Of a DNA stretch of 53,041 bases, positions 14,745 through 52,813 are shown piece by piece (position 1 is the stretch's first letter; every line of letters begins with the position of its first letter). Below the pieces are notes generated by a model, which had not been told where the DNA came from, did no database searches, and saw only the letters and a list, made by a program, of their open reading frames with translations. This DNA is from an uncultured Rhodospirillaceae bacterium. GTDB lineage: Bacteria > Pseudomonadota > Alphaproteobacteria > UBA8366. Where the stretch lies: NCBI GenBank assembly GCA_913043025.1, contig CAJWLM010000019.1:1-53041 (forward strand), read 5' to 3'. Made by a program: the position numbers and the translations under genes.

Positions 14745-15587
14745 ATGAGTGATACAGGTTTACAAAAAGTGATTAATGAGGCTTGGGAAATCCGTGATTC
14801 AATTAATTCCGAGACAACGGGTGAAGTTCGTACTGCTATAGAAAAAGCACTCGATTTGATGGACGCGGGAAAGGTAAGGGTCGCTGAAAAAAAATCTGGC
14901 CGTTGGCAAGTTAATCAATGGCTCAAGAAAGCTGTACTTCTGTCGTTTCGTATAGAGAATATGCGTCCCCAAACGGGTGGGCCTGATGGCTCTATGTGGT
15001 GGGATAAGGTGCCTGCGAAGACGAAAGACTGGACTGAAAAAGAATTCGAAAAGGCTGCTTTTCGATCCGTGCCATCGGCCGTAATAAGACGTTCCGCATA
15101 TATCGCTCCTGGTGTAGTGCTAATGCCTTCATTCGTTAACCTTGGTGCGTACGTTGATTCGGGTACCATGGTCGACACTTGGGCCACAGTTGGCTCCTGC
15201 GCCCAGATAGGAAAAAATGTCCATATATCAGGGGGCGCTGGTATAGGTGGCGTGCTGGAGCCTTTGCAGGCAGATCCGGTGATTATTGAAGACAATTGCT
15301 TTATTGGTGCGCGTTCAGAGGTTGTTGAAGGAGTGATTGTTGAGACTGGTTCGGTTCTGTCTATGGGTGTATTTATAGGTCAATCGACAAAGATTATTGA
15401 TCGCGAGACTGGTGTGATTACGCGCGGTAAAGTGCCCGCTTACTCGGTTGTTGTGCCGGGTAGTCACGCCGGAGATCCTCTCCCAGACGGATCAGCAGGT
15501 CCTAATCTCTACTGCGCTGTAATTCTTAAGACGGTAGATGAAGGTACCCGCGAGAAAACTTCAATTAATGAATTATTGCGGGATTAA
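14745..15587 (+). CDS. dapD: 2,3,4,5-tetrahydropyridine-2,6-dicarboxylate N-succinyltransferase
   Basis: DapD succinylates tetrahydrodipicolinate in the succinylase branch of lysine/meso-DAP synthesis. The 280-residue protein has an N-terminal helical domain ([21 protein letters not shown]) and then a left-handed beta-helix of hexapeptide repeats (about 105-240) with [34 protein letters not shown] and [13 protein letters not shown]. The start ATG 14745 is preceded by AGGGAAA. It lies two bases upstream of dapE, forming a dapDE operon. Confidence 0.97.
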
Positions 15588-39751: not shown

Positions 39752-41005
39752 TCATGCGGCTTTAACAAATTCTGCGTAATGAGCATTAAGTGCCTCTGAA
39801 GCACCATAGATTGGAGTGTGTCCTCTTAACAAAATCTGAGTTGAACGTTCATAGGCTGCGCTGGGCATATTTATAGTTCCATCATTGGAAATGCTGCCTT
39901 CAATAGTAGCTTTCAGAACACCAGCAGGGTTGGCCATTTTAATTTCATGAAGACTATTGTCGTTTGTGAGTGGCTTTACTCCATGCACAATTTTATTGGC
40001 AACAGTCCCCGGAATTAAACATCCGGCAGCGAGGCACGCTCCGCCAGTTACCGCGAGCGATTTGTGGCAGGCCTGCGGAGTAAAATACCGGACACTCAGA
40101 CTTGCTCCGCGAGCACTTTCATGCGTGTTAGCATGACCTATAATACAAGCTTTTGGAATTGTTTCACTGGCTGCCAGCTCTTCCGGTTTGAGGGTAACGC
40201 CATCTGCATTCTTTAATTTCATTGCTAGACCTGCAGCTACCCAAAGATCTTGCATCTTTTCCATAAATATTTTGTCGGCATCCAGTTCGGCTGGATCTTC
40301 CTGAGCTGTTTTGCCAAAATCAGATGCACTGGCTATCACCATTGGTACTGCTAAGTCGACACAGGATACTTCTAGGCCATTAAAAACATCTATGGCATTA
40401 CCCGTTGGCAGTAAAGCTCCGGTTTTTGAGCCTGCAGGCTTGAGCAAGGCTAGCTGTACCCCCGGCCATTTTCCCATAACACCGGGGATCTCCGCATCTG
40501 TTGCCATCGGTTGTCCTGGCTTGGGCATGTCAATCAAGGCATGGGTAACTACACCGGTGTTTGTATTGTATATGCGAACACGCGATCGCCCCGATTGAAC
40601 TGAAATCAAGCCAATTTCCTGAGCGAATATTGGCAAGGTTGATGACATATTTCCACAATTGACACTCCAGTCGATCGCTGCTTTTCCCGGTGCAAGCTGT
40701 GCTAATGTGCTATTGATTTCAGCATCCTTGCGATCTGAGCGTCCGACTATAAACACTTTGCAACTTTGCGGAATACCTCTCCCAAGACCAGTAATTTGTC
40801 TGTCGCCGGGCACCTCCCCTTTGTGTGGCACGCCCATGAGGTGGCGTATTAATTCTTCGCGGAGCGCCTGATCCTCTGGCAGATGCTCTTCGAACAGAAC
40901 GATGCCGGTCGAAGTGCCGCCTCTCATATGGTAAACAGGAATTTCTAAAACACCAGAGAGGAAACGCGGTGTCATACCCAGGAAATGTACCTTTTTATCA
41001 ACCAT
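39752..41005 (-). CDS. PrpF-family isomerase (4-oxalomesaconate tautomerase / methylaconitate isomerase-like)
   Basis: This is a member of the PrpF (diaminopimelate-epimerase fold) family, whose known members isomerise unsaturated tricarboxylates: 2-methylaconitate, trans-aconitate, or 4-oxalomesaconate in gallate/protocatechuate 4,5-cleavage. It has 417 residues. Seen are IPVYHMRGGTSTGIVLFEE, DRQITGLGRGIPQSCKV, WSVNCGNMSSTLPIFA with the conserved Cys, and a second catalytic-region segment with VTGGACLAAGCLIPGT. The start ATG 41005 has GGAG upstream. Substrate cannot be read from sequence. It is the last gene of the accessory run beginning with the epimerase at 44532. Confidence 0.85.
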   Translation of the reverse strand: MVDKKVHFLGMTPRFLSGVLEIPVYHMRGGTSTGIVLFEEHLPEDQALREELIRHLMGVPHKGEVPGDRQITGLGRGIPQSCKVFIVGRSDRKDAEINSTLAQLAPGKAAIDWSVNCGNMSSTLPIFAQEIGLISVQSGRSRVRIYNTNTGVVTHALIDMPKPGQPMATDAEIPGVMGKWPGVQLALLKPAGSKTGALLPTGNAIDVFNGLEVSCVDLAVPMVIASASDFGKTAQEDPAELDADKIFMEKMQDLWVAAGLAMKLKNADGVTLKPEELAASETIPKACIIGHANTHESARGASLSVRYFTPQACHKSLAVTGGACLAAGCLIPGTVANKIVHGVKPLTNDNSLHEIKMANPAGVLKATIEGSISNDGTINMPSAAYERSTQILLRGHTPIYGASEALNAHYAEFVKAA

Positions 41006-41042
41006 CTAATTCTCCATTTCTCAAAGGATTTATTTGGTAAAG

Positions 41043-41999
41043 CTAGCTTGTGAAACGCGGCATGTCCAAGCCTACACCTACCAAGTGTCCAAATAGATCG
41101 TAAATTTTGTCGACGGTGGGCTGAGGAAGTGGTGGCGATAAGATTGACGACAGATTAGTTTTAAGATGCTCTACGTTTCCAGTGCCAAAGAGCAATACAT
41201 CGACACCTGGTTCGTGGCGGACAAACCTATAAGCTGCATCGATAACACTTCTCGCGCCGCCTTCAACTATCAGGAAGTCCAGCGGTTCGCCTACAGCAAG
41301 GGCCGGGTCAATTTTCCGTTCGGCAGCAAGTACCTCAAGGGTTTCTTTTAAGTATTCTCTATCCGAAAAAATGCTTCTAACAGCGTACATGAGAAGCGTC
41401 CCGACACCATTGTTTTGTGTGAGGGGAAAGATTGTGTTTCGTGCTTGTTGGCACATTAAATGGTAGGCTACCATGCAGACTTCCCAAATATCTTCCTTCA
41501 GCGCTTTTTCGATAACTGTGTGGTGGGGGTCACAGGATGCCGACTCGGTAAGGCCAAGGTGCCTGATTTTACCTTTTTCTTTTTCTTTGAGTAGAGCAGG
41601 CGCAAGTTCATTTAAGCTATAGTCGTATTCCTCTGGTTTAACGCCATGTAAATTGAGCACGTCAACGTAATCCGTGTTCAGTCGTTTAAGAGAAGAATTA
41701 AATCTGCAAATAACTTCGTCGGCACTGAGACAGCCATCGGAATTGCGAATTGTGGATTTGGTGGCGAGCACAATTTCTTCTCGTGGAAACGATTTTATTG
41801 CCTCACCGACAATTCGGTCTGAACCATAGTTTTCGGCTGTATCTATGAAATTGATGCCAAGATCAATTGCTTCGTGAAGGATGGCGATCGATTGCTTGGT
41901 TGTTTTGCCTGTTTTAATTCCCAAGCGACTATTTCCGCCGGTGCCAATACCTGCAACACTCACTTTGAGGCCGGTTTTGCCGAGTTTAGTATATTCCAT
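41043..41999 (-). CDS. Aldo/keto reductase
   Basis: This is an NAD(P)H-dependent oxidoreductase with a TIM-barrel AKR fold, 318 residues. The catalytic tetrad is visible: Asp and Tyr in FIDTAENYG (about residues 51-59), Lys in LATKS, His in LNLHGVKPEEY. The N-terminal MEYTKLGKTGLKVSVAGIGTGG is typical of the short-chain alcohol/aldehyde AKR group. It lies 37 bp upstream of the PrpF-like gene and 55 bp downstream of the GST gene, so it is likely to be in the same transcript. The substrate is unknown. Confidence 0.88.
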   Translation of the reverse strand: MEYTKLGKTGLKVSVAGIGTGGNSRLGIKTGKTTKQSIAILHEAIDLGINFIDTAENYGSDRIVGEAIKSFPREEIVLATKSTIRNSDGCLSADEVICRFNSSLKRLNTDYVDVLNLHGVKPEEYDYSLNELAPALLKEKEKGKIRHLGLTESASCDPHHTVIEKALKEDIWEVCMVAYHLMCQQARNTIFPLTQNNGVGTLLMYAVRSIFSDREYLKETLEVLAAERKIDPALAVGEPLDFLIVEGGARSVIDAAYRFVRHEPGVDVLLFGTGNVEHLKTNLSSILSPPLPQPTVDKIYDLFGHLVGVGLDMPRFTS

Positions 42000-42054
42000 G
42001 GTAAAGAATTGCCTGGCTGAATTTGGGGGATATAAATGTTTTCAATTTCCCATC

Positions 42055-42660
42055 TCAAGCATTAGGACGAGATGTTGTGGCAAATGATTGATGATGTTCG
42101 ATTTCCTTCATCCAGGCGTCTAAGCGTGGGTGTTTAACTCGCCAATTATCCTCTGCGCCACGCCAGTCAGCATAGGAAAGAGCACAGGCGACAGTTAATG
42201 CACCCATATGCGTTTTACCTTCAAGCTCAGAAACAATCCCATCCAATGCTCCATACAATCGATTCGAACGGTGGGTTTCTTTATTGAGAATAGTGGGCGA
42301 TTGCTCAGACGTATCCAGTCTATTTTGACTGCTGCGAGTAAATAATGAGTCCATTAGAACAGATCCCACTGACTCCATTGTTTGACAGGAAAGGCGTTCC
42401 GCAGGATCCTTCGGGTATAGCTTCCCGCCCGAGATATCATTCATGTGCTGAGCAATCAATATGCATTCCGAAAGCCCAATCCCATCATCTAACAAAAGAG
42501 TTGGAGCCTTGCCCGATGGGTGTGCTGATAAAAGAGTGTCTAAGTTTTCGGGGATAGGCGACACATCAATTTCTTCGCATTGATTACCGTACCCGGCCTC
42601 AATAATCGCTATTCTTGCACGTCGGCTATACGGGGATGTTGGTGTCATAAATAACTTCAT
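42055..42660 (-). CDS. Glutathione S-transferase family protein
   Basis: The protein has 201 residues with a thioredoxin-like N-terminal domain and a helical C-terminal domain. MKLFMTPTSPYSRRARIAI carries the active-site Ser region, HPSGKAPTLLLDDG is the cis-Pro loop, and LSECILIAQHM the glutathione gamma-Glu contact (Ser-Glu replacing the usual E/S-S). The C-terminal domain has ALTVACALSYADWR. Such proteins can act as isomerases or lyases in catabolic clusters as well as in detoxification. It sits between the aldo/keto reductase and the amidohydrolase genes, all on the minus strand. Confidence 0.85.
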   Translation of the reverse strand: MKLFMTPTSPYSRRARIAIIEAGYGNQCEEIDVSPIPENLDTLLSAHPSGKAPTLLLDDGIGLSECILIAQHMNDISGGKLYPKDPAERLSCQTMESVGSVLMDSLFTRSSQNRLDTSEQSPTILNKETHRSNRLYGALDGIVSELEGKTHMGALTVACALSYADWRGAEDNWRVKHPRLDAWMKEIEHHQSFATTSRPNA

Positions 42661-42739
42661 ACCAAATATTACCTGTAATTTTACAATTCAAAATCTTTAT
42701 CAAGTTAGTGCATTTGTTTTCGACTAGACTATAGTTGAT

Positions 42740-43606
42740 CTATGGGTCAAACCCGTATAACTGCCCGGCATTAGTAGATAAAACCATTCGGCGCGTCTCA
42801 CCATCACTTATCCAATCAAAAATTGGATCTATGCAGTCGGCGCTCTCCGGCATGCCAGAAAATGGGAACTTAGGATGTGGCCAATTAAGGGCAAAAAGCA
42901 AGCGGTCAGGTCGGTTTTTCGTAAGTTTTTTTGCTCTTGCCTTTAGATCTTCATAAAATGGAGGGCCGGATAATGAATTCAGGTAGAAGGCCGAGAGACG
43001 CACCCATACGTTCTCACAAACTTGCAAAAGTCTAAGTAGTTCGCAGAAATTTGCTCCGGCGTCACCTTCTCTGGGATCGGTTCTGCCAAAATGATCAAAT
43101 ATAATGGGGCACGGGAGCTCGGAGAGCATCTTGCCGTAGTCCAGAATAAAGTTGGGGTTTTTATCTTGTAGTTGTAATACCCATCCAAATGGCGCGATTT
43201 TTTTTGCAATCCCCTTCACCTGATCTAATGTTATGTCGTTATTAGAACTTGATACTCGCACCCCTCGAATGCCCCTCACGTGTAAGCGTCGAATCTCCGC
43301 ACACTCAATTTCGGGAGAAACTACAGCAGTTCCACGCGCAAAATTCTGGCCAAGCAGTTCTATTGCATCCAAAGTAATCGAATTGTCTGTGCCATACATT
43401 GAAGAATGCACAATAACACAGCGTTCAATCCCTAGCCTCTTAAGCATTGCCTTATAGGCATCGACTGTTGCCAACCGTTTATTATTTACTGTCCTTGGAT
43501 ACTGCTCAAGCGCCCCGTAAATGTGTGAGTGCGTATCGCATGTCTTTAACGGTGCTTTAAAAAGAGGCGTTCTACCAGCATCTTCCGTAAAATCGATATC
43601 GGTCAC
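42740..43606 (-). CDS. Amidohydrolase-superfamily lactonase (LigI/galactarolactone isomerase-like)
   Basis: This is a TIM-barrel metal-independent-type amidohydrolase of the 2-pyrone-4,6-dicarboxylate lactonase / D-galactarolactone isomerase group, 288 residues. H-x-H is CDTHSHIYG (H26, H28), the strand-5/6 His is IIFDHFGRTD (H172), and the C-terminal motif reads LNWPHPKFP. In LigI the residue before WPHP is the catalytic Asp248, whereas here it is Asn241. GVRVSSSN and LSAFYLNS supply the usual substrate-side region. GTG 43606 overlaps the epimerase stop by four bases. The reaction is probably lactone or ester hydrolysis or isomerisation; the substrate is unknown. Confidence 0.82.
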   Translation of the reverse strand: MTDIDFTEDAGRTPLFKAPLKTCDTHSHIYGALEQYPRTVNNKRLATVDAYKAMLKRLGIERCVIVHSSMYGTDNSITLDAIELLGQNFARGTAVVSPEIECAEIRRLHVRGIRGVRVSSSNNDITLDQVKGIAKKIAPFGWVLQLQDKNPNFILDYGKMLSELPCPIIFDHFGRTDPREGDAGANFCELLRLLQVCENVWVRLSAFYLNSLSGPPFYEDLKARAKKLTKNRPDRLLFALNWPHPKFPFSGMPESADCIDPIFDWISDGETRRMVLSTNAGQLYGFDP

Positions 43607-44532
43607 CTAATTATTCCTGTTTTAATAAACTCATCTCGGAGCGCTTCTTGGACTGTAAATTGCGGTTTAAATCCTAGATCATCCCGAAGCCTTTTGGTTA
43701 CCATGTGTCCGCCTCCCCTGAGTGAGGGGCCAGTGAAATTTACCTTGCCAGAGTTTGGCGCGAGGCTCCTGATCATTTGGTAATATTCTTTGTAACTAAT
43801 GCAATTTTCATCGGGGCCAGCTACATTATAAACAGGGAAGGAAGGTTTGGGGTGGCGCAAAGCAGCGATGGTGGCGCCGACTGCATCATCAATGTATGTG
43901 TATTGTGTACGTTCTTCACCGGAAAGAAAGTTTATGTCTATGTTTTCCCCCGTCACAATTTTTTTTATACGGTCGCGGACGGCTGCCATTCCTTCACCTT
44001 TTACCTTAGAGGGGCCGATAACGCCCGAGTATCTGAGAGCAAGAAAAGATAAATTATTTTGTTTTGCGAAACGATTTCCTATTATTTCACAGTAATATTT
44101 TCCAGCTCCATAGATTGATCTTGCGCCAGGGTTCATTGTTTCCTCGAACGGGCCTCTACCGCCACCATACACCGCAATTGTGCTAGCAAAGATAAAACGG
44201 TCAACGCCTGCTACAACCGCCTCTTTTAAAATGTTTATGGTAGCCGCCACGTTGACAGCATTAGCTCGTTGAGGGTTGTTTTCGCAATCTCCTATTAACA
44301 TCGCTGCAAGATGTATGACTTGGTTTGGTTGGGCGGACTCAATCGTTGCCTTCACATCATTGGGGTTTGTTATATCGCAGCAATAAAAATCGATTTTATT
44401 CTCTAGACCAGATAGCTCATTGCACGTGGGTGAATGCCTAGCAGCAATGGCGACATGTTCACCTTGATCAAAGAGGTTTGTTGCCAAACCGGTTCCGATA
44501 GAGCCTGTCCCGCCGAAAATGAGAATTGTCAT
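43603..44532 (-). CDS. NAD-dependent epimerase/dehydratase (extended SDR)
   Basis: The protein has 309 residues. The Rossmann motif is IFGGTGSIGTGLA (about residues 5-17). An adenine-side Asp lies in FYCCDITNPNDV, and the catalytic Ser/Thr and Tyr-Lys in FASTIAVYGGG and SIYGAGKYYCE. The body resembles UDP-glucose 4-epimerase or uronate-dehydrogenase-type SDRs, with LRYSGVIGPSKVKGEGM and VYNVAGPDENCISYKEY. Because it is translationally coupled to a lactonase-like gene, sugar or uronate dehydrogenation followed by lactone hydrolysis is one attractive reading, but that is inference. It is divergent from the Gfo/Idh/MocA gene. Confidence 0.85.
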   Translation of the reverse strand: MTILIFGGTGSIGTGLATNLFDQGEHVAIAARHSPTCNELSGLENKIDFYCCDITNPNDVKATIESAQPNQVIHLAAMLIGDCENNPQRANAVNVAATINILKEAVVAGVDRFIFASTIAVYGGGRGPFEETMNPGARSIYGAGKYYCEIIGNRFAKQNNLSFLALRYSGVIGPSKVKGEGMAAVRDRIKKIVTGENIDINFLSGEERTQYTYIDDAVGATIAALRHPKPSFPVYNVAGPDENCISYKEYYQMIRSLAPNSGKVNFTGPSLRGGGHMVTKRLRDDLGFKPQFTVQEALRDEFIKTGIIR

Positions 44533-44647: not shown

Positions 44648-45715
44648 ATGGCAATTAAACCGATACGTGTTGGTCTTATCGGCGCTGGTGGTAACATGAA
44701 GAGCCGCCATATTCCGGGTTTTCAAAACATCAATGGTGTCTCCCTGGCTGCTGTTTCAAATCGGTCGTATGCCTCTGGAAAGAAAATTGCGGATGAGTTT
44801 GGGATACAGAAAGCTTGTCATGATTGGATGGAAATAATAGAGGATGAAACGATTGATGCGGTTTGTATTGGCACCTGGCCATACATGCACGAGACACTCA
44901 CGGTTAGTGCTTTAGATCATGGGAAGCATGTTTTATGCGAGGCGCGGATGGCAATGAATTCGGCTGAAGCACATCGAATGCTCAAAGTGTCTATGGAATA
45001 TCCACGCCAAGTGGCGCAAATCGTGCCATCACCGCGTACTTTCGCCATTGATCGAACCATTATCGAAATGATGGGCAAGGGATACATCGGGGATTTGATT
45101 TCTGTAGACGCGCGGGTTAACACTGGCAGCGCGTTTCCTAAGAATGACTCACCAATGCATTGGCGCTTCTCGCGAGAGTTCTCCGGCAACAATATAATGG
45201 CTATGGGAATTTTGTATGAGGCGATGATGCGTTGGGTCGGCACAGCAAAATCCGTCCAGGCGCTTGGCCAATCGGTGATCAAACATCGCGTCGGCCCCGA
45301 TAAGAGCCGGTTGCAAATGACCATACCAGACCATGTGGATTGCATCTGCGAAATGGAGCAGGGCGGTACCATGCGTTATAGCATTTCGTCCGTGCTCGGC
45401 CATTCGCCTATGAGCATCGAATGTCATATCTTCGGCACTGAAGGCACAATCTCCGTGCTTGAAAAACATGGTGGCAAGCTGGAGGTCTATGCAGGCAAGC
45501 GCAAGGACAAAAATATCAAACGGGTAAATATCCCCAAATCGAAGCAAGGTTTTTGGCGCGTTGAGGAAGAATTCATCAACGCAATTCGCGGTAAGGAAGA
45601 AGTCAAACTCACCGACTTAACAACGGCGACTAAATATATGGAATGGACTGACGCTGTGACACTTTCCATGCGTCGCGGCGAGAAAATCTATTTGCCGTTG
45701 GCGGATCGGGACTAA
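44648..45715 (+). CDS. Gfo/Idh/MocA-family oxidoreductase with EAR in place of the EKP motif
   Basis: The protein has 355 residues with an N-terminal NAD(P) Rossmann domain (VGLIGAGGNMKSRHIPGF) and a C-terminal alpha/beta substrate domain. Family members usually carry EKP, with the Lys taking part in catalysis. Here the segment reads GKHVLCEARMAMN, with C97-E98-A99-R100, so that lysine is gone. HWRFSREFSGNNIMAMG lies where the second catalytic region is expected. The base composition appears G+C-richer than the genes to its left. The start ATG 44648 has AGGAG upstream. The substrate is unknown, and it could be a non-dehydrogenase or use a different residue. Confidence 0.85.
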   Translation: MAIKPIRVGLIGAGGNMKSRHIPGFQNINGVSLAAVSNRSYASGKKIADEFGIQKACHDWMEIIEDETIDAVCIGTWPYMHETLTVSALDHGKHVLCEARMAMNSAEAHRMLKVSMEYPRQVAQIVPSPRTFAIDRTIIEMMGKGYIGDLISVDARVNTGSAFPKNDSPMHWRFSREFSGNNIMAMGILYEAMMRWVGTAKSVQALGQSVIKHRVGPDKSRLQMTIPDHVDCICEMEQGGTMRYSISSVLGHSPMSIECHIFGTEGTISVLEKHGGKLEVYAGKRKDKNIKRVNIPKSKQGFWRVEEEFINAIRGKEEVKLTDLTTATKYMEWTDAVTLSMRRGEKIYLPLADRD

Positions 45716-45935: not shown

Positions 45936-46068
45936 AAATGATCAGGTTTTAAGGGCATTATAAATATAAAAAAATTTGATAACAAACATCAAAATTTATT
46001 GAATTGACTAATACTAGGTTTTGCGATGATTTGGTACTTTTAAGCAGTTGAATTTCCTGGAGAACGTT

Positions 46069-47259
46069 ATGAGCAATACCTTGCCGCTTTCGGGCGTCCG
46101 TGTTGTCGATTTCACCCATGTCATCTCTGGGCCGTTTTGCACTATGATGTTGGCTCATATGGGCGCAGACGTGGTCAAGGTAGAGCGGCCCAGTGTAGGT
46201 GATTCGCTTCGTAATATACCGGGATATGAAGGCAGAGAGGGGCACCCGGATTATTTTAATTCAGTGAATAATACTAAGCGCAGTGTCGCGCTGGATTTGA
46301 AAAACCCGGATCAGCATGCAGCTGCCGTTGACTTAATATGCAATGCGGATGTGGTAGTGGAAAATTTCAAGCCCGGAACGGCTGACCGGATAGGTCTCGG
46401 CTACGAGGTGGTGAAAAAGATCAACTCTAAGCTGATTTATTGTTCTATTTCCGGGTTTGGACAAACTGGCCCCCATGCCCAGCGGCCTGCCATCGATCCC
46501 ATTATCCAGGCAGTTTCCGGTGTGATGAGTGTGACAGGTGAGCAAGATGGCCCACCCATGATGGCGGGCTATCCTCTTACTGATACGGTGGCCGGCATGT
46601 ATGGCGCTTTTGCGGTGGTATCCGCCTTGATAAAGGCGCGAGAGAGTGGGGTTGGCGAGCACCTGGATGTGAGTATGCAGGGTGCTATGCTTTATGTTCT
46701 GGGCTGTCGAATGGCAGAAACTTTGCAGGCTGGAATCGTCACCGAACGCTCTGGCAATCAAAATCCTTTTCGCGTGCCGTCAGAAGTCTTTCTCTCCAGA
46801 GACAGAAGGCCGACTATTCTCCACTGCAGCAACAACAAGCGTTGGGAATCTTTATGCCGCGCATTGGAAGTTCCCGAATGGGCAGAGAACCCAAAATACG
46901 ACACAATGCAGAAACGTCAGAAACACAGAGAGGAAATTCATGCGATGGTGGCGGCCAGATTTGCTGAGCGCGATCAGGCGGACTGGATGCCACGTTTCGA
47001 TGCTGAGGATACTACTTGCATCCATGTCCATGACTATCAAGAGGCGTTAGATCACGAGCAGGTACAGCATCGTGCTCAGTTGACATCACGAGACCATCCT
47101 TTAGACGGTAAGGTATGGACGGTCGGAGTACCGTTGATGGATTCGGCCTATAATGAGGCGATTACACGGCCACCGATCTTGGGGGAAAACACCGTTGAAA
47201 TTTTAAAAGAATGGCTGGGTTGGGATGAAATTAAGAGCAAGAATATACTGCAAAAATAA
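46069..47259 (+). CDS. Class III CoA-transferase (CaiB/BaiF/Frc family)
   Basis: The enzyme is expected to move CoA between carboxylic acids, for instance from succinyl-CoA to a substrate acid. It has 396 residues. The N-terminal family start is LPLSGVRVVDFTHVISGPFC. The catalytic Asp and following region are DVVVENFKPGTADRIGLGYE and YCSISGFGQTGPHAQRPAID; LTDTVAGMYGAFAVV is also conserved. GGAG lies six bases before ATG 46069. It heads a plus-strand unit with two hotdog-fold genes (20 bp then 9 bp gaps), which suggests CoA activation followed by hydration or dehydration. Confidence 0.93.
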   Translation: MSNTLPLSGVRVVDFTHVISGPFCTMMLAHMGADVVKVERPSVGDSLRNIPGYEGREGHPDYFNSVNNTKRSVALDLKNPDQHAAAVDLICNADVVVENFKPGTADRIGLGYEVVKKINSKLIYCSISGFGQTGPHAQRPAIDPIIQAVSGVMSVTGEQDGPPMMAGYPLTDTVAGMYGAFAVVSALIKARESGVGEHLDVSMQGAMLYVLGCRMAETLQAGIVTERSGNQNPFRVPSEVFLSRDRRPTILHCSNNKRWESLCRALEVPEWAENPKYDTMQKRQKHREEIHAMVAARFAERDQADWMPRFDAEDTTCIHVHDYQEALDHEQVQHRAQLTSRDHPLDGKVWTVGVPLMDSAYNEAITRPPILGENTVEILKEWLGWDEIKSKNILQK

Positions 47260-47279
47260 AACGGATAAGAGGGGTCACT

Positions 47280-47792
47280 ATGGCAAAACCTAGTAAGGTC
47301 CGTATGGCGGAAGATGCTACTGGCAAGCGCACAACCTACGAAGAAATTGAAGTGGGTAAAGATTTAGGTTCGTTTGAATGGACGGTCACCGAGGCCGACA
47401 TTGAGCGGCAATGTGTGTTGGATGAGCATTGGCATGAGTGGTTTGTCAGTGACTCGCCATGGGGCGCAGCAGTAGCTCCGCCGCAAATACAGTCTCGTCC
47501 GCCACGCTGGCTATTAGGCCGTACCTATAATATTCGTGGTGTCAGCTACAAGCATGATTTTGAATATTTGAAACCTATCAAGGCGGGCCAGACTCTCACT
47601 ATCTCGGGTAAAATTTCCGACAAATATGTCAAGCGCAATCGAGAATTTATGCGCTGGGAGACTTTCGCCCATAATGAAGACGGCGAGTTGGTATTTTCCG
47701 CGTCACGGGTTCAGTGCATGGATATTATTGAGCGCAACGCCCCGCGTGAAGGCGTTGGTGTAGATGGCGGCCCAAAGCCGGAACGGATATAG
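47280..47792 (+). CDS. MaoC/FAS1-like hotdog dehydratase family protein, first of a pair
   Basis: The protein has 170 residues with a hotdog fold similar to the N-terminal half of two-domain MaoC-type hydratases (FAS1-like dehydratase). EWTVTEADIERQCVLDEHWH and SPWGAAVAPPQIQ align with the active helix region, and VSYKHDFEYLKPIKAGQTL with the central strands. The standard D-x-N-P-x-H hydratase signature is not intact. It probably forms a heteromer with the next gene product and acts on the acyl-CoA made by the CoA-transferase. That role is inferred from context. Confidence 0.75.
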   Translation: MAKPSKVRMAEDATGKRTTYEEIEVGKDLGSFEWTVTEADIERQCVLDEHWHEWFVSDSPWGAAVAPPQIQSRPPRWLLGRTYNIRGVSYKHDFEYLKPIKAGQTLTISGKISDKYVKRNREFMRWETFAHNEDGELVFSASRVQCMDIIERNAPREGVGVDGGPKPERI

Positions 47793-47801
47793 GGAAATCT
47801 G

Positions 47802-48233
47802 ATGGCGATTATTACGGAAGACACGCCGATTGGTTATGCATTACCGCAAGTTTCACGAAAGCTTGACGTAGGTCTTAACCAAGTCAAAACTAACGACGGT
47901 CAATTAGACACCATACACACTAATGCTGAGGCAGCTGCTCGCGAAGGATTAAGTGAGCCAATAGCTATTGGCTCAAGGATTTTTGGTGTTATTCCGAGAA
48001 TGATGATGATTTGTTTTGATGAAGGCTGGGTTGTCGGTGGAAAAGGCTCCGTTGTTACCCGACGCCCTGCTGGTATTGATGACCTTATCACTGCGAAGGG
48101 TTATGTAAAAAGTAAAACAGTCGAAACTGAAGACAAACTCCGTATTGAGTGTGAAGTTTGGGTTGAGACCGACAAGGGGGTCAAGGTTATGGTTGGCCAG
48201 TGCAGTGGATTGGTTGCGCGCACCGCGCCCTAA
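47802..48233 (+). CDS. MaoC-like hotdog protein, second of a pair
   Basis: The protein has 143 residues. TIHTNAEAAAREGLSEPIAIG is at the place of the R-specific enoyl-CoA hydratase motif: the His and the AAR-x-x-G helix are kept, while the Asp-x-Asn-Pro part is not. Later strands include KGSVVTRRPAGIDDLITAKG and a VMVGQCSGLV end. It starts nine bases after the previous gene, so the two are almost certainly cotranscribed and probably form one two-chain hydratase. Substrate is unknown. Confidence 0.72.
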   Translation: MAIITEDTPIGYALPQVSRKLDVGLNQVKTNDGQLDTIHTNAEAAAREGLSEPIAIGSRIFGVIPRMMMICFDEGWVVGGKGSVVTRRPAGIDDLITAKGYVKSKTVETEDKLRIECEVWVETDKGVKVMVGQCSGLVARTAP

Positions 48234-49627: not shown

Positions 49628-50650
49628 ATGAAGTTGATATCAAAAATTGTTCTTGGAAGCGGCCTTGCCATGTTAATTGGCATTAGCGCCACAACTTCTG
49701 TTATCGCTGCCGGACACAAAAAACCCGGTGATTTTCCGAAGCGTCCTATCACGATCATCGTCTGTTACGGTAAAGGCGGGGGCTCAGATCAAGCGGTAGC
49801 GGCGCTTCAGGGGCCAGCCAGTAAAATCATGGGGATTAAAATAAATAAGGTGAATAAAAAGGGTGGCGGGGGCGTCAACTGTCTGCCTGATTTCCAACAA
49901 GCGCCAGCTGACGGTTATACAATTCTTCAACATACAGACACGTTGGTCACAAAATACGTTGGCGGCGCACATAACATCCACCCAACAAAGAACCTGAGTC
50001 CAATCATTACCAGTAACATTGCGCCTACAGGATTATTTATAAAGCCGGATGACAGCCGTTTTCTCGATGGTGGTAAGCCTAGTTGGGAAAAGGTAGTAGC
50101 CTATGGTAAGAAAAATAAACTAGCCGTTTCGAACATAAATGCCGAGATGGAACTAGTGACTATGGCGAAAGTCGAAGAATTTTTTGGTATTAAAGTGAAA
50201 CAAGTTTTATTCGATAAACCGGCGCAGCGTTACGGCTCGGTGATCGGTGGCAAGCTCGATGTGCTCATGGAACAGCCGGGTGATGTTATCAAGCATGTTA
50301 AGGCAGGTAAGCTAGCACCCGTACTTGCAGTTTGGCCAAAACGCTTTGGTGTCTTTCCGAACACTAAGGCGATAGGCCAAGATTACAATATCGATTGGCA
50401 ACCTTTGTTACGTGTTAGAGGCCTTTGGGTAAAGGCGGAAACGCCAGCTCCAATTAAGAAATATCTCGAAGCAGTCTTTTCTGAAGCTTATAAAAGCGAA
50501 AAACACCAAAGCTTCTTAAAGCGTAAAAGCCTAACTATTGTAAATTCATATCAGAATGCCGCAGATACAGAAAAATCTGTCAATGATGCGATAAAAACCT
50601 ATGCGAAAATATTTAAAGGCATGGGGCGGAAAGTCCGCAAGGGCCTCTAA
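49628..50650 (+). CDS. tctC: Tripartite tricarboxylate transporter substrate-binding protein (TctC family)
   Basis: This is a periplasmic binding protein of the TTT transporter. It has 340 residues. The signal peptide KLISKIVLGSGLAMLIGISA is followed by FPKRPITIIVCYGKGGGSDQ, the family's ligand-loop start, then NKVNKKGGGGVNCLPDFQQA and ADGYTILQHTD. TTT binding proteins take citrate-type and other dicarboxylates or aromatic acids; which one here is not evident. A strong Shine-Dalgarno and an 11-bp hairpin after the stop suggest it is made in excess of the membrane subunits. Confidence 0.92.
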   Translation: MKLISKIVLGSGLAMLIGISATTSVIAAGHKKPGDFPKRPITIIVCYGKGGGSDQAVAALQGPASKIMGIKINKVNKKGGGGVNCLPDFQQAPADGYTILQHTDTLVTKYVGGAHNIHPTKNLSPIITSNIAPTGLFIKPDDSRFLDGGKPSWEKVVAYGKKNKLAVSNINAEMELVTMAKVEEFFGIKVKQVLFDKPAQRYGSVIGGKLDVLMEQPGDVIKHVKAGKLAPVLAVWPKRFGVFPNTKAIGQDYNIDWQPLLRVRGLWVKAETPAPIKKYLEAVFSEAYKSEKHQSFLKRKSLTIVNSYQNAADTEKSVNDAIKTYAKIFKGMGRKVRKGL

Positions 50651-50668
50651 GGGTCGTTTCGAAATCAC

Positions 50669-50701
50669 AGTCCCGCCCATTTATTTCACTTGGGCGGGAC
50701 T
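50669..50701 (+). terminator. Strong hairpin between tctC and tctB (attenuator or mRNA stabiliser)
   Basis: AGTCCCGCCCA (50669-50679) pairs perfectly with TGGGCGGGACT (50691-50701) over an 11-base loop, starting 18 bases after the tctC stop. The stem is very GC-rich. It is followed by ATTTCGTC and not a T-run, so it is more likely a partial terminator or a 3'-end protector for tctC mRNA than a full stop. Confidence 0.6.
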
Positions 50702-50761
50702 ATTTCGTCAAATAGAATTTGAGAGCTTTGACGAGCAACCCGCTATGATCAGTTCAAGGGA

Positions 50762-51292
50762 ATGCAGGAAATGAGTCGGCGCAGGACTTTGATAGAGGCC
50801 GCAGGATGGCTCTTCTTTGTTGGTGTCGCGCTATATTTTTCATTTGACTTCAATGAGCCGTTGCCGGGATTCAAATTTGGCGCTGCCCATTGGCCACATG
50901 TAATTATTGCATTTATGACAGTAGCAGCTGGGGTTTTGATTGCTGCGCAGTTTCTTAAAGGAAGACGGATTGAGGGTCAGGCGGACCAGTTTTTCGATGA
51001 GATTGAGGAAGATATAGAAAAGCTTAAACCGCGAACGGTTGCTATGTTTATCCTGCCGTTGCTGTGGGTTTTTGGTATGCATAAAATCGGATTCCTAATT
51101 GCAACGCCAATATTTATATTTATTTGCACGTGGCTTATGGGCGTACGGAGTTGGAGAACCCTTTTGGGATTCACCTCCTGTTTTTATGTATCGTTGGTAT
51201 TGATTTTCTATAAGTGGGTTTTCACGCCTCTACCAATGGGAGCAGGATGGTTCCATTCCCTGAATGGTGAAATTATAGGGCTCGTTCAATAA
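50762..51292 (+). CDS. tctB: Tripartite tricarboxylate transporter small membrane subunit (TctB family)
   Basis: The protein has 176 residues with four predicted TM helices: LIEAAGWLFFVGVALYFSF, HVIIAFMTVAAGVLIAAQF, TVAMFILPLLWVFGMHKIGF, and a C-terminal pair around FIFICTWLMGVRSWRTLLGF and SLVLIFYKWVF. An acidic cytoplasmic stretch (DEIEEDIEKL) separates the two halves. The sequence of TctB proteins is poorly conserved, so identity rests on topology and on its position between tctC and tctA. Confidence 0.88.
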   Translation: MQEMSRRRTLIEAAGWLFFVGVALYFSFDFNEPLPGFKFGAAHWPHVIIAFMTVAAGVLIAAQFLKGRRIEGQADQFFDEIEEDIEKLKPRTVAMFILPLLWVFGMHKIGFLIATPIFIFICTWLMGVRSWRTLLGFTSCFYVSLVLIFYKWVFTPLPMGAGWFHSLNGEIIGLVQ

Positions 51293-51310
51293 TCGACCGA
51301 AGGTAATCAA

Positions 51311-52813
51311 ATGCAGGAATTTCTACATGGCACGGAGCTTTTGTTCACGAGCCCGATTGGCGTGTCAATATTTGTGGGAGGTTTGCTTGGGGGTCTTGTT
51401 TTTGGTGCAATCCCGGGGCTAAATGTTTTGACGCTAGCTGCAGTATTACTGCCTTTCACCGCATGGTTTCCAGCAGAACATGCAATCATGCTCTACGGAG
51501 TGATCTACGTATCTGGAATCTACGGGGGTGCTATAACCGCAATCCTTTTTAATATTCCAGGCTCTGTCGAAAATGCACCAACTGCATTTGATGGCTACCC
51601 TATGACAAAAAAAGGTGAGGCTAGTAAAGCAATCGGCTACGCAGTGACTTGTTCGGCCATTGGAGGCACATTATCTGCCATTCTGATGATGTTTGCTACT
51701 GAGCCACTGGCGGATTTTGCTGTGTCGACTTTTGGGCCAATCGAAATAACCGCGTTGATATTCTTTGGTTTAACGGTGGTAGCTGGGGTAGGCTCGCGAT
51801 CGCTTGCAAAGGGTTGGTTGTCACTGGGCCTAGGGCTATTAATTGGGTGTATCGGCAATGATCCTGTTGATGCAACACCCCGGTATACCTTTGGAGTACT
51901 TTACTTGTCCGGTGGAGTTGGCTTCATTCCGCTAATTCTGGGTTTGTTTGCGGTAAGCGAAGTTTTTATACAAAGTCAACGAATGGCGACCGGGACACAT
52001 AGAAAACCGAAAATATCTGTTAATTTCCCAACTGTAAGCGAATTTTGGGCACTGCGGTGGGCGGTTGTACGCTCAACAGTAATAGGCTGGTTCAGCGGCA
52101 TTCTCCCCGGTGTTGGCGCTACCTTGGCAGCTTTTCTTTCCTACAACGAAGCAGTGCGCTGGTCGAAAACACCGGAAAGATTTGGCAATGGTGAACCGGA
52201 AGGAGTAGTAGCGCCGGAAACTGCTAACAATGCGGCCACTGGTGCCGCGATGATTCCTCTTCTGGCACTTGGCCTTCCTGGAGGAGCATTGACGGCAATG
52301 ATGATCGGTGTTTTCAACGTTCATGACATGGATGTGGGGCCATTGATTATGGTAGAGGCACCTGATCTGGTTTGGATTCTCTTCTCGTCTATGTTCTGGG
52401 CTAGCCTCGCTATTTTGCTGCTAGGAATGGTAGAATCTAAAACAATCGTGCATCTGTTGCGAGTGCCATTTACGTTGCTTGCTCCTGGCATTCTAGTTTT
52501 TTCTACTATCGGTGCATACGCACTGCGGTCCAATATTTTTGACATTCTGTCTATGTTCTTGGCTGGAATTGCGGGTTATTTTCTTCGCAAAAGTGACTAT
52601 TCGGTTGCTGCTATCGTCATGGGCGTGATTCTCGGGAAGATTGGCGAGAATAGTCTTGCTCAGGCTCTCACCATGCTTGACTTTAATTACTTAGGCTTTT
52701 TCCAAGAGCCGGTATCTGCAGTGCTGGTTGTAGCCGGATTACTGACTATTGTCTGGAATTTGACTCGTCGGTTACGGAAATATTTCGGCGTGAATAAAAG
52801 GGTTACAAGCTGA
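51311..52813 (+). CDS. tctA: Tripartite tricarboxylate transporter large permease (TctA family)
   Basis: This is the main 12-TM permease, 500 residues. The N-terminal hallmark is GGLLGGLVFGAIPGLNVLTLAAVLLPFT. YGVIYVSGIYGGAITAILFNIPGS, then GYPMTKKGEASKAIGYA, and later NAATGAAMIPLLALGLPGGALTAMMIGVF are typical of TctA. Na+- or H+-driven uptake depends on the tctC protein. It follows tctB by 18 bp. Beyond its stop, a gene of a different type starts at 52894. Confidence 0.95.
   Translation: MQEFLHGTELLFTSPIGVSIFVGGLLGGLVFGAIPGLNVLTLAAVLLPFTAWFPAEHAIMLYGVIYVSGIYGGAITAILFNIPGSVENAPTAFDGYPMTKKGEASKAIGYAVTCSAIGGTLSAILMMFATEPLADFAVSTFGPIEITALIFFGLTVVAGVGSRSLAKGWLSLGLGLLIGCIGNDPVDATPRYTFGVLYLSGGVGFIPLILGLFAVSEVFIQSQRMATGTHRKPKISVNFPTVSEFWALRWAVVRSTVIGWFSGILPGVGATLAAFLSYNEAVRWSKTPERFGNGEPEGVVAPETANNAATGAAMIPLLALGLPGGALTAMMIGVFNVHDMDVGPLIMVEAPDLVWILFSSMFWASLAILLLGMVESKTIVHLLRVPFTLLAPGILVFSTIGAYALRSNIFDILSMFLAGIAGYFLRKSDYSVAAIVMGVILGKIGENSLAQALTMLDFNYLGFFQEPVSAVLVVAGLLTIVWNLTRRLRKYFGVNKRVTS

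Follow-up and report, generated by a model that had tools for sequence, protein, structure and literature searches.

Does a run of five minus-strand genes in an uncultured Rhodospirillaceae bacterium belong to a catabolic pathway, or do these genes only happen to lie side by side? The window analyzed here is the whole of contig CAJWLM010000019.1 (C19; 53,041 nucleotides), part of a genome of 3.08 Mb in 65 contigs with an estimated completeness of 97.4%. A first-pass annotation proposed a candidate new catabolic pathway for five genes at 39752–44532, separated by short gaps and assigned to the PrpF, aldo-keto reductase (AKR), glutathione S-transferase (GST), LigI-like amidohydrolase (AH2), and short-chain dehydrogenase/reductase (SDR) families. 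The list of open reading frames (ORFs) confirms the arrangement and Pfam confirms the families. The run was also described as divergent from acyl-coenzyme A (CoA) genes. That divergent unit is real, but its first gene, which encodes a Gfo/Idh/MocA-fold protein (MocA), had been overlooked; it precedes the genes for a CoA-transferase (CaiB) and two MaoC-like proteins (MaoC1 and MaoC2).

We propose, with somewhat less than even confidence, that the nine genes form a lineage-specific catabolic locus made of two back-to-back units and ending in CoA-thioester chemistry. If all nine genes serve one route, SDR and AKR would oxidize or reduce a substrate bearing hydroxyl and probably also carboxyl groups, and AH2 would open or rearrange the lactone so formed. 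PrpF would then shift the C–C double bond of an unsaturated di- or tricarboxylate, CaiB would load the acid onto CoA, and a putative MaoC1/MaoC2 heteromer would hydrate or dehydrate the CoA thioester. The final cleavage would fall to a lyase encoded elsewhere in the genome, which holds eight HpcH/HpaI-type genes, all on other contigs, and no CitE-type lyase linked to the locus. Four observations favor this proposal: the conserved order of the five-gene run, the intact residues of PrpF, AKR, and SDR, the recurrence of the CaiB-MaoC1-MaoC2 triad, and the presence of these HpcH/HpaI-type genes.

In the direction of transcription the run reads SDR, AH2, GST, AKR, PrpF, with gaps of −4, 79, 55, and 37 bases, so that the SDR and AH2 genes share a 4-base overlap; 115 bases separate the SDR gene from the divergent unit. 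Four of 43 genomes of the order, representing two genera, carry all nine genes in a single arrangement: the window's own, G002 from the same genus, and G005 and G009 from another genus of the same family. All four keep the five-gene order and the 4-base overlap, which survive at 50–73% protein identity. The remaining gaps in the run range from 1 to 79 bases, except for AH2–GST, which is about 315 bases in G005 and G009; in G005 the run holds a tandem second GST gene. The features are listed in the table.

Features of the locus and its surroundings in the window
Feature	Coordinates	Strand	Basis of assignment
PrpF-family isomerase	39752..41005	-	Pfam PrpF, E 6e-70; Lys83 and Cys117 kept
Aldo-keto reductase (AKR)	41043..41999	-	Pfam Aldo_ket_red, E 4e-37; nearest solved relatives L-galactose dehydrogenases
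Glutathione S-transferase (GST), YibF-like	42055..42660	-	Pfam GST N-terminal domain, E 6.5e-9; NF007682; PDB 4mk3, 4ibp
Amidohydro_2 protein (AH2), LigI-like	42740..43606	-	Pfam, E 3e-28; PDB LigI chains
Extended SDR (NAD epimerase/dehydratase family); leads the five-gene run	43603..44532	-	Pfam PF01370, E 2e-41
Gfo/Idh/MocA-fold protein (MocA)	44648..45715	+	Pfam PF01408, E 3e-21
Class III (CaiB/BaiF) CoA-transferase (CaiB)	46048..47259	+	Pfam PF02515, E 1e-115
MaoC-like protein 1 (MaoC1, FAS1_DH region)	47280..47792	+	Pfam PF13452, 22.4 bits against a cut-off of 22
MaoC-like protein 2 (MaoC2, hot-dog)	47802..48233	+	Predicted fold; pairing with MaoC1
Tripartite tricarboxylate transporter TctC, TctB, TctA	49628..52813	+	Pfam for TctC and TctA; TctB by position

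None of the matches shown for seven of the proteins reaches a curated NCBIfam cut-off (for SDR, among the best 25 of 46 matches), and MaoC1 and MaoC2 have no NCBIfam match. The best solved match of PrpF is YbhH (6otv, E 4e-60), and its score against 4-oxalomesaconate tautomerase (NF033377) is 271.6 bits, below the cut-off of 440. Lys83 and Cys117 align with a lysine and a cysteine of LigU, which we take to be the catalytic residues; opposite Lys83, the LigU chains read Met (6p3h) or Lys (6p3j). Both residues are present in 13 of 14 aligned orthologues (the window included; drawn from 14 of the 17 genomes of the order with a match), the fourteenth having an unread codon at the Lys position. YbhH, 4-oxalomesaconate tautomerase, and the PrpF isomerases belong to the same family and have these two residues in common with the window protein. 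Nevertheless, the latter is set apart from YbhH and the tautomerase as a separate subfamily, seen in 17 of the 43 genomes of the order (E 1e-75) and in one of 385 genomes sampled from the class.

AKR carries Asp53, Tyr58, Lys81, and His118, presumably the catalytic tetrad, and SDR carries a Rossmann GGTGSIG motif and a YGAGK (YxxxK) motif. GST scores 62.9 bits against NF007682, for which the cut-off is 181. The best PDB match of SDR is the UDP-glucose 4-epimerase 4zrm (E 2e-22), and no uronate dehydrogenase model appears among the best 25 of its 46 NCBIfam matches. These enzymes raise the alternative of a non-phosphorylative sugar-acid route, in which a lactone, formed by AKR and SDR through oxidation of an aldose or uronate, would be hydrolyzed or isomerized by AH2, as in L-fucose or uronate oxidation. 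The L-galactose dehydrogenase relatives of AKR, the NDP-sugar type of SDR, and a match of AH2 to 4mup, presumably galactarolactone isomerase, are in keeping with such a route. We nevertheless consider it unlikely: the five-gene run lacks a sugar-acid dehydratase, to our knowledge PrpF, CaiB, and MaoC proteins have no role in known sugar-acid routes, and AH2 is closer to LigI (129.9 bits) than to 4mup (69.8 bits) and has Asn in place of the catalytic Asp. The Agrobacterium route, which employs uronate dehydrogenase and galactarolactone isomerase, shares with the locus an SDR and an amidohydrolase of such kind. It differs in that AH2 matches 4mup more weakly than LigI and in that no aldarate dehydratase is found in the run.

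LigI is the nearest solved protein to AH2 (chains 4dia, 4d8l, and 4di8, E about 1e-36 to 1e-35), while the NCBIfam model for 4-sulfomuconolactone hydrolase gives 126.6 bits against a cut-off of 500. Asn241 of AH2 aligns with Asp248 of LigI, which we take to be the catalytic general base and whose mutants are reportedly inactive; the LigI chains themselves have Asp (4d8l), Asn (4dia), or Ala (4di8) at this position. Asn occurs in 17 and Asp in 8 of 25 distinct genes from the fetched loci, a set that includes the window and was merged by hand from 35 rows. Because 17 of the 25 carry Asn, Asn241 is, as judged from the alignment, a subfamily trait and not damage confined to the window gene. LigI presumably binds pyrone dicarboxylate through arginines 124, 130, 183, and 217. 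R117 and R175 of AH2 match R124 and R183, and R175 is replaced by Thr in G005 and G009; R130 lies in an insertion and R217 is opposite Leu209, so that both are without a counterpart. R117, H172, H26, and H28 are conserved across the full-length rows. The LigI-like chemistry suggested in the first-pass annotation thus finds no support in that form, given both the Asn and the loss of two of the four substrate arginines.

A second LigI-like amidohydrolase of the Asn type is encoded at L032:9267–10163 (G000:C26), and also in L033, L034, and L039. In L032 four TauD-family genes lie beside it, together with genes for a molybdenum hydroxylase and an FAA hydrolase; size-matched ORFs are found on its flanks in G002 and, in part, in G005. 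This is another cluster, probably catabolic.

The MocA protein is likewise noncanonical. Residues 98–100 are EAR, where all four aligned solved proteins have EKP, presumably the catalytic motif of canonical Gfo/Idh/MocA dehydrogenases, and all 20 fetched MocA relatives share the EAR. By eye, a second motif also seems altered, with MGILYE or MGIWYE in place of the GDLGxH found in the two solved proteins whose alignment extends that far. The EAR-type clade is not specific to the cluster, as it is also found outside it across the class (L055–L065, L072–L077), and the annotated neighbors of these relatives vary by genome. An assignment of MocA as LigC was rejected: PmdC ranks below several sugar dehydrogenases among its matches, and the EKP is lost. 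A bolder possibility, to which we give a low probability, is a new CoA-linked lactone route in which the Asn-type amidohydrolase and the EAR-type MocA perform altered chemistry, MocA acting as a new kind of NAD-binding enzyme or as a noncatalytic sensor of an intermediate. The role of sensor would fit because the locus lacks a regulator gene, no regulator family being found by Pfam among the nine genes.

The resemblance to protocatechuate 4,5-cleavage (LigC, LigI, LigU) has to be weighed here. In that pathway, an amidohydrolase opens the pyrone lactone, and a PrpF-family protein tautomerizes oxalomesaconate. The Sphingobium pathway shares with the locus the amidohydrolase and PrpF families and a MocA-fold protein. 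Unlike it, the locus has Asn for Asp in AH2 and EAR for EKP in MocA, CoA-transferase and MaoC proteins stand where the pathway has LigJ and LigK, and the genome has no LigB-type dioxygenase. The first-pass annotation had noted that no ring-cleavage dioxygenase was present. This observation holds genome-wide for the LigB type: the extradiol dioxygenase family PF02900 gave no match in the 97.4%-complete genome and was detected in 4 of 14 control genomes. A check for a LigK-type aldolase returned a single RraA-like gene on a different contig (C4:179788). Protocatechuate 4,5-cleavage as known is therefore excluded, by the missing dioxygenase and by the Asn at the Asp248 position. A degenerate or dispersed version, which would account for LigC, LigI, and LigU homologues (with PmdC among the MocA matches) lying close together, is largely refuted and in our view highly improbable: in addition to the points just given, MocA is not closest to PmdC, and PrpF falls well below the 4-oxalomesaconate tautomerase cut-off. 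The proposed catabolic route would resemble in its logic the lactone-opening and double-bond-shift steps of this pathway, with CoA chemistry replacing LigJ and LigK.

CoA-linked C5-dicarboxylate routes (mesaconate or itaconate), in which succinyl-CoA:mesaconate CoA-transferase works with a mesaconyl- or itaconyl-CoA hydratase, offer a further comparison. As in the locus, hot-dog proteins resembling hydratases come after a class III CoA-transferase, and TctA-type transporter genes lie nearby, both in the window and in L081. In contrast, CaiB of the locus scores 258.3 bits against succinyl-CoA:mesaconate CoA-transferase (NF041294), for which the cut-off is 700, two small MaoC proteins are present, and no HpcH/HpaI-type lyase is linked. 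Neither the C5-dicarboxylate nor the uronate route appears to be supported by a specific family match. The earlier statement that the combination matches no known pathway agrees with our literature searches, in which none of the titles listed described a cluster with this gene set.

Genes of the CoA unit recur elsewhere. MaoC1 is 83–96% identical in four relatives; its predicted structure is too poor for a fold search, and its hot-dog call rests on a Pfam score barely above the cut-off. MaoC2 has no Pfam family, and its model, with a mean predicted local distance difference test score of 72 in the best of five and about 40 in the other four, matches the MaoC-like proteins 1q6w and 4ffu (E 6e-5 to 1e-3), which suggests a hot-dog fold. 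MaoC2 adjoins MaoC1 in all nine places where both were seen. In L081, the CaiB-MaoC1-MaoC2 triad (MaoC1 84% and a truncated CaiB 48% identical to the window) is followed by a third FAS1_DH-type protein and a TctA relative (28%), and the triad is found again in L086. G005 has a second copy (L095:2883–9490) together with an enolase-superfamily protein, an isochorismatase, an enoyl-CoA hydratase, and another CaiB, and G009 has ORFs matched in size to that copy (L096:5492–12097). In G007, MaoC1 and MaoC2 are adjacent, with no CaiB within the 19.9 kb fetched. The triad is thus a recurrent module.

Outside the four genomes with the intact set, the locus is incomplete or absent. G001, of the window's genus and 84% complete, has the tail of GST, AKR, and PrpF at a contig end; MocA and MaoC1 were searched for there and not found. 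MocA relatives (E 1e-60) occur in 15 of the 43 genomes of the order, and in the other 11 no cluster surrounds them within reach of their contigs, some of which are short. In the sample of 385 class genomes, which contains few near relatives of the window genome, PrpF (E 1e-75) and SDR (E 1e-45) were each found in one, the window's own, MocA (E 1e-90) in seven, and MaoC1 (profile, E 1e-10) in two, the last two counts including the window's genome. MaoC1 was also present in 6 of 26 hand-chosen genomes. A scan of genome contigs for two exact MaoC1 peptide patterns, which recovers close relatives only, gave three loci, two of them apparently G005 and G009 again. Searches of plasmids, made with all of the proteins except AKR, GST, and MaoC2 (six of the nine), returned no match of at least 60% identity, the best listed being about 25–41%.

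The significance of this co-occurrence depends on what surrounds it. Several results weigh against a single catabolic locus. Between 156 and 48233 (about 48 kb), 44 of 46 ORFs of at least 100 residues are collinear with G009 at 38% identity or more, including thiamin, pyrE, peptidase, and ABC transporter genes without a plausible link to the locus. In two other genomes of the family the parts are scattered: in G003, PrpF lies near the end of C29, with MocA on C26 and an AH2 homologue on C14, and G007 has PrpF on C27, MocA on C1, an AH2 homologue on C41, and MaoC1 on C39, although these AH2 homologues share just 45% identity and are possibly not orthologous. Furthermore, the nine genes include no member of a regulator family, promoter and terminator scans did not rise above shuffles (18 against 16.8 and 7 against 10.9, respectively), and with AH2 lacking the catalytic Asp and MocA the EKP, the usual reaction of the family is, from their residues, not assignable to either protein. 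By eye, no operator is evident in the divergent intergenic region.

Co-retention proves little because collinearity between the two genera extends over almost all of the surrounding block. The conservation of the nine genes is therefore weak evidence for joint function, and after this control we dropped it as proof of a single pathway. More generally, joint retention of genes in two genera need not be informative if the entire block around them is collinear. The first-pass annotation held that genes not kept together in relatives would speak against a pathway, and the scatter in G003 and G007 comes close to this; that the genes stay together is true of the four genomes named above, where the block is collinear, and not of these two.

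It is possible, though on balance we doubt it, that the neighbors have no functional connection, or are split between two small, separate operons, and lie side by side only through a block that was never rearranged. The collinearity and the scattered homologues fit this explanation, as do the different neighbors of PrpF orthologues in other genomes, where the ORFs of draft genomes are simple longest-ORF picks. The PrpF gene adjoins one for a LigXa-type Rieske oxygenase in G014, to which an ORF of G033 is homologous. In G028 its neighbors encode a class II aldolase and a class III aminotransferase, and G025 has ORFs homologous to these; in G011 an enolase-superfamily gene lies next to it, as does a homologous ORF in G022. 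A TauD-type gene is the neighbor in G037, and acyl-CoA dehydrogenases are encoded beside PrpF in G007. Against this explanation stand the gene order and the 4-base overlap, kept despite extensive protein divergence. In addition, a gene for a GAF/PAS adenylate/guanylate cyclase (809 residues; L026:14325–16754) is inserted in G005 between PrpF and pyrE, beside the run and not inside it, whereas the second GST copy does lie inside. Taken as a whole, the catabolic locus remains reasonable but unproven: its families and the missing LigB-type dioxygenase stand, LigI-like chemistry is not supported, and the comparison with relatives is equivocal.

Within the collinear block, the CaiB–MaoC1 stretch departs from its surroundings. 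Identity to G009 at fourfold degenerate sites averages 0.28 over 37 block genes (standard deviation 0.05, maximum 0.41). MocA, at 0.40, is within this range; CaiB reaches 0.58 and MaoC1 0.73, while MaoC2, too short for the block script, gave 0.40 in a separate calculation. A different measure, identity at the third position of all codons, is mostly 0.64–0.86 over 46500–47800 (the 3′ part of CaiB and MaoC1), with 0.70–0.86 at about 46.8–47.7 kb and 0.44 inside MaoC2; the curve for G005 nearly matches that for G009. The simplest reading is that this stretch was likely exchanged by homologous recombination once the genera had diverged. An alternative is strong codon constraint, but these genes show lower identity at fourfold sites within the genus (0.75–0.88) than do thiG, thiO, and pyrE (0.93–0.95). 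Elsewhere in the block, the protein encoded at 14745–15587 (280 residues) matches G009 at 94% identity across a 179-residue segment, with fourfold sites at the block level (0.23), a pattern indicative of strong protein constraint on this segment.

The nearby tricarboxylate-type transporter noted in the first-pass annotation is recognized by Pfam, but its membership in the cluster is doubtful. A peroxiredoxin gene on the opposite strand separates it from the nine genes, and neither the peroxiredoxin nor the three Tct genes have a match in the stretches of G009. No match to the window Tct proteins lies beside the cluster in the searched stretches of G002, G005, and G009, and the transporter was accordingly rejected as a fixed part of it.

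The strongest new facts are the noncanonical residues in two proteins, the recurrent CaiB-MaoC1-MaoC2 module, and the collinearity control. The altered-residue clades of AH2 and MocA are testable targets for enzymology regardless of the pathway. If the genes do form one pathway, it would show roles for PrpF-, LigI-, and MocA-like proteins without their known partners, and it would give Rhodospirillales bacteria an added route for using dissolved organic acids.

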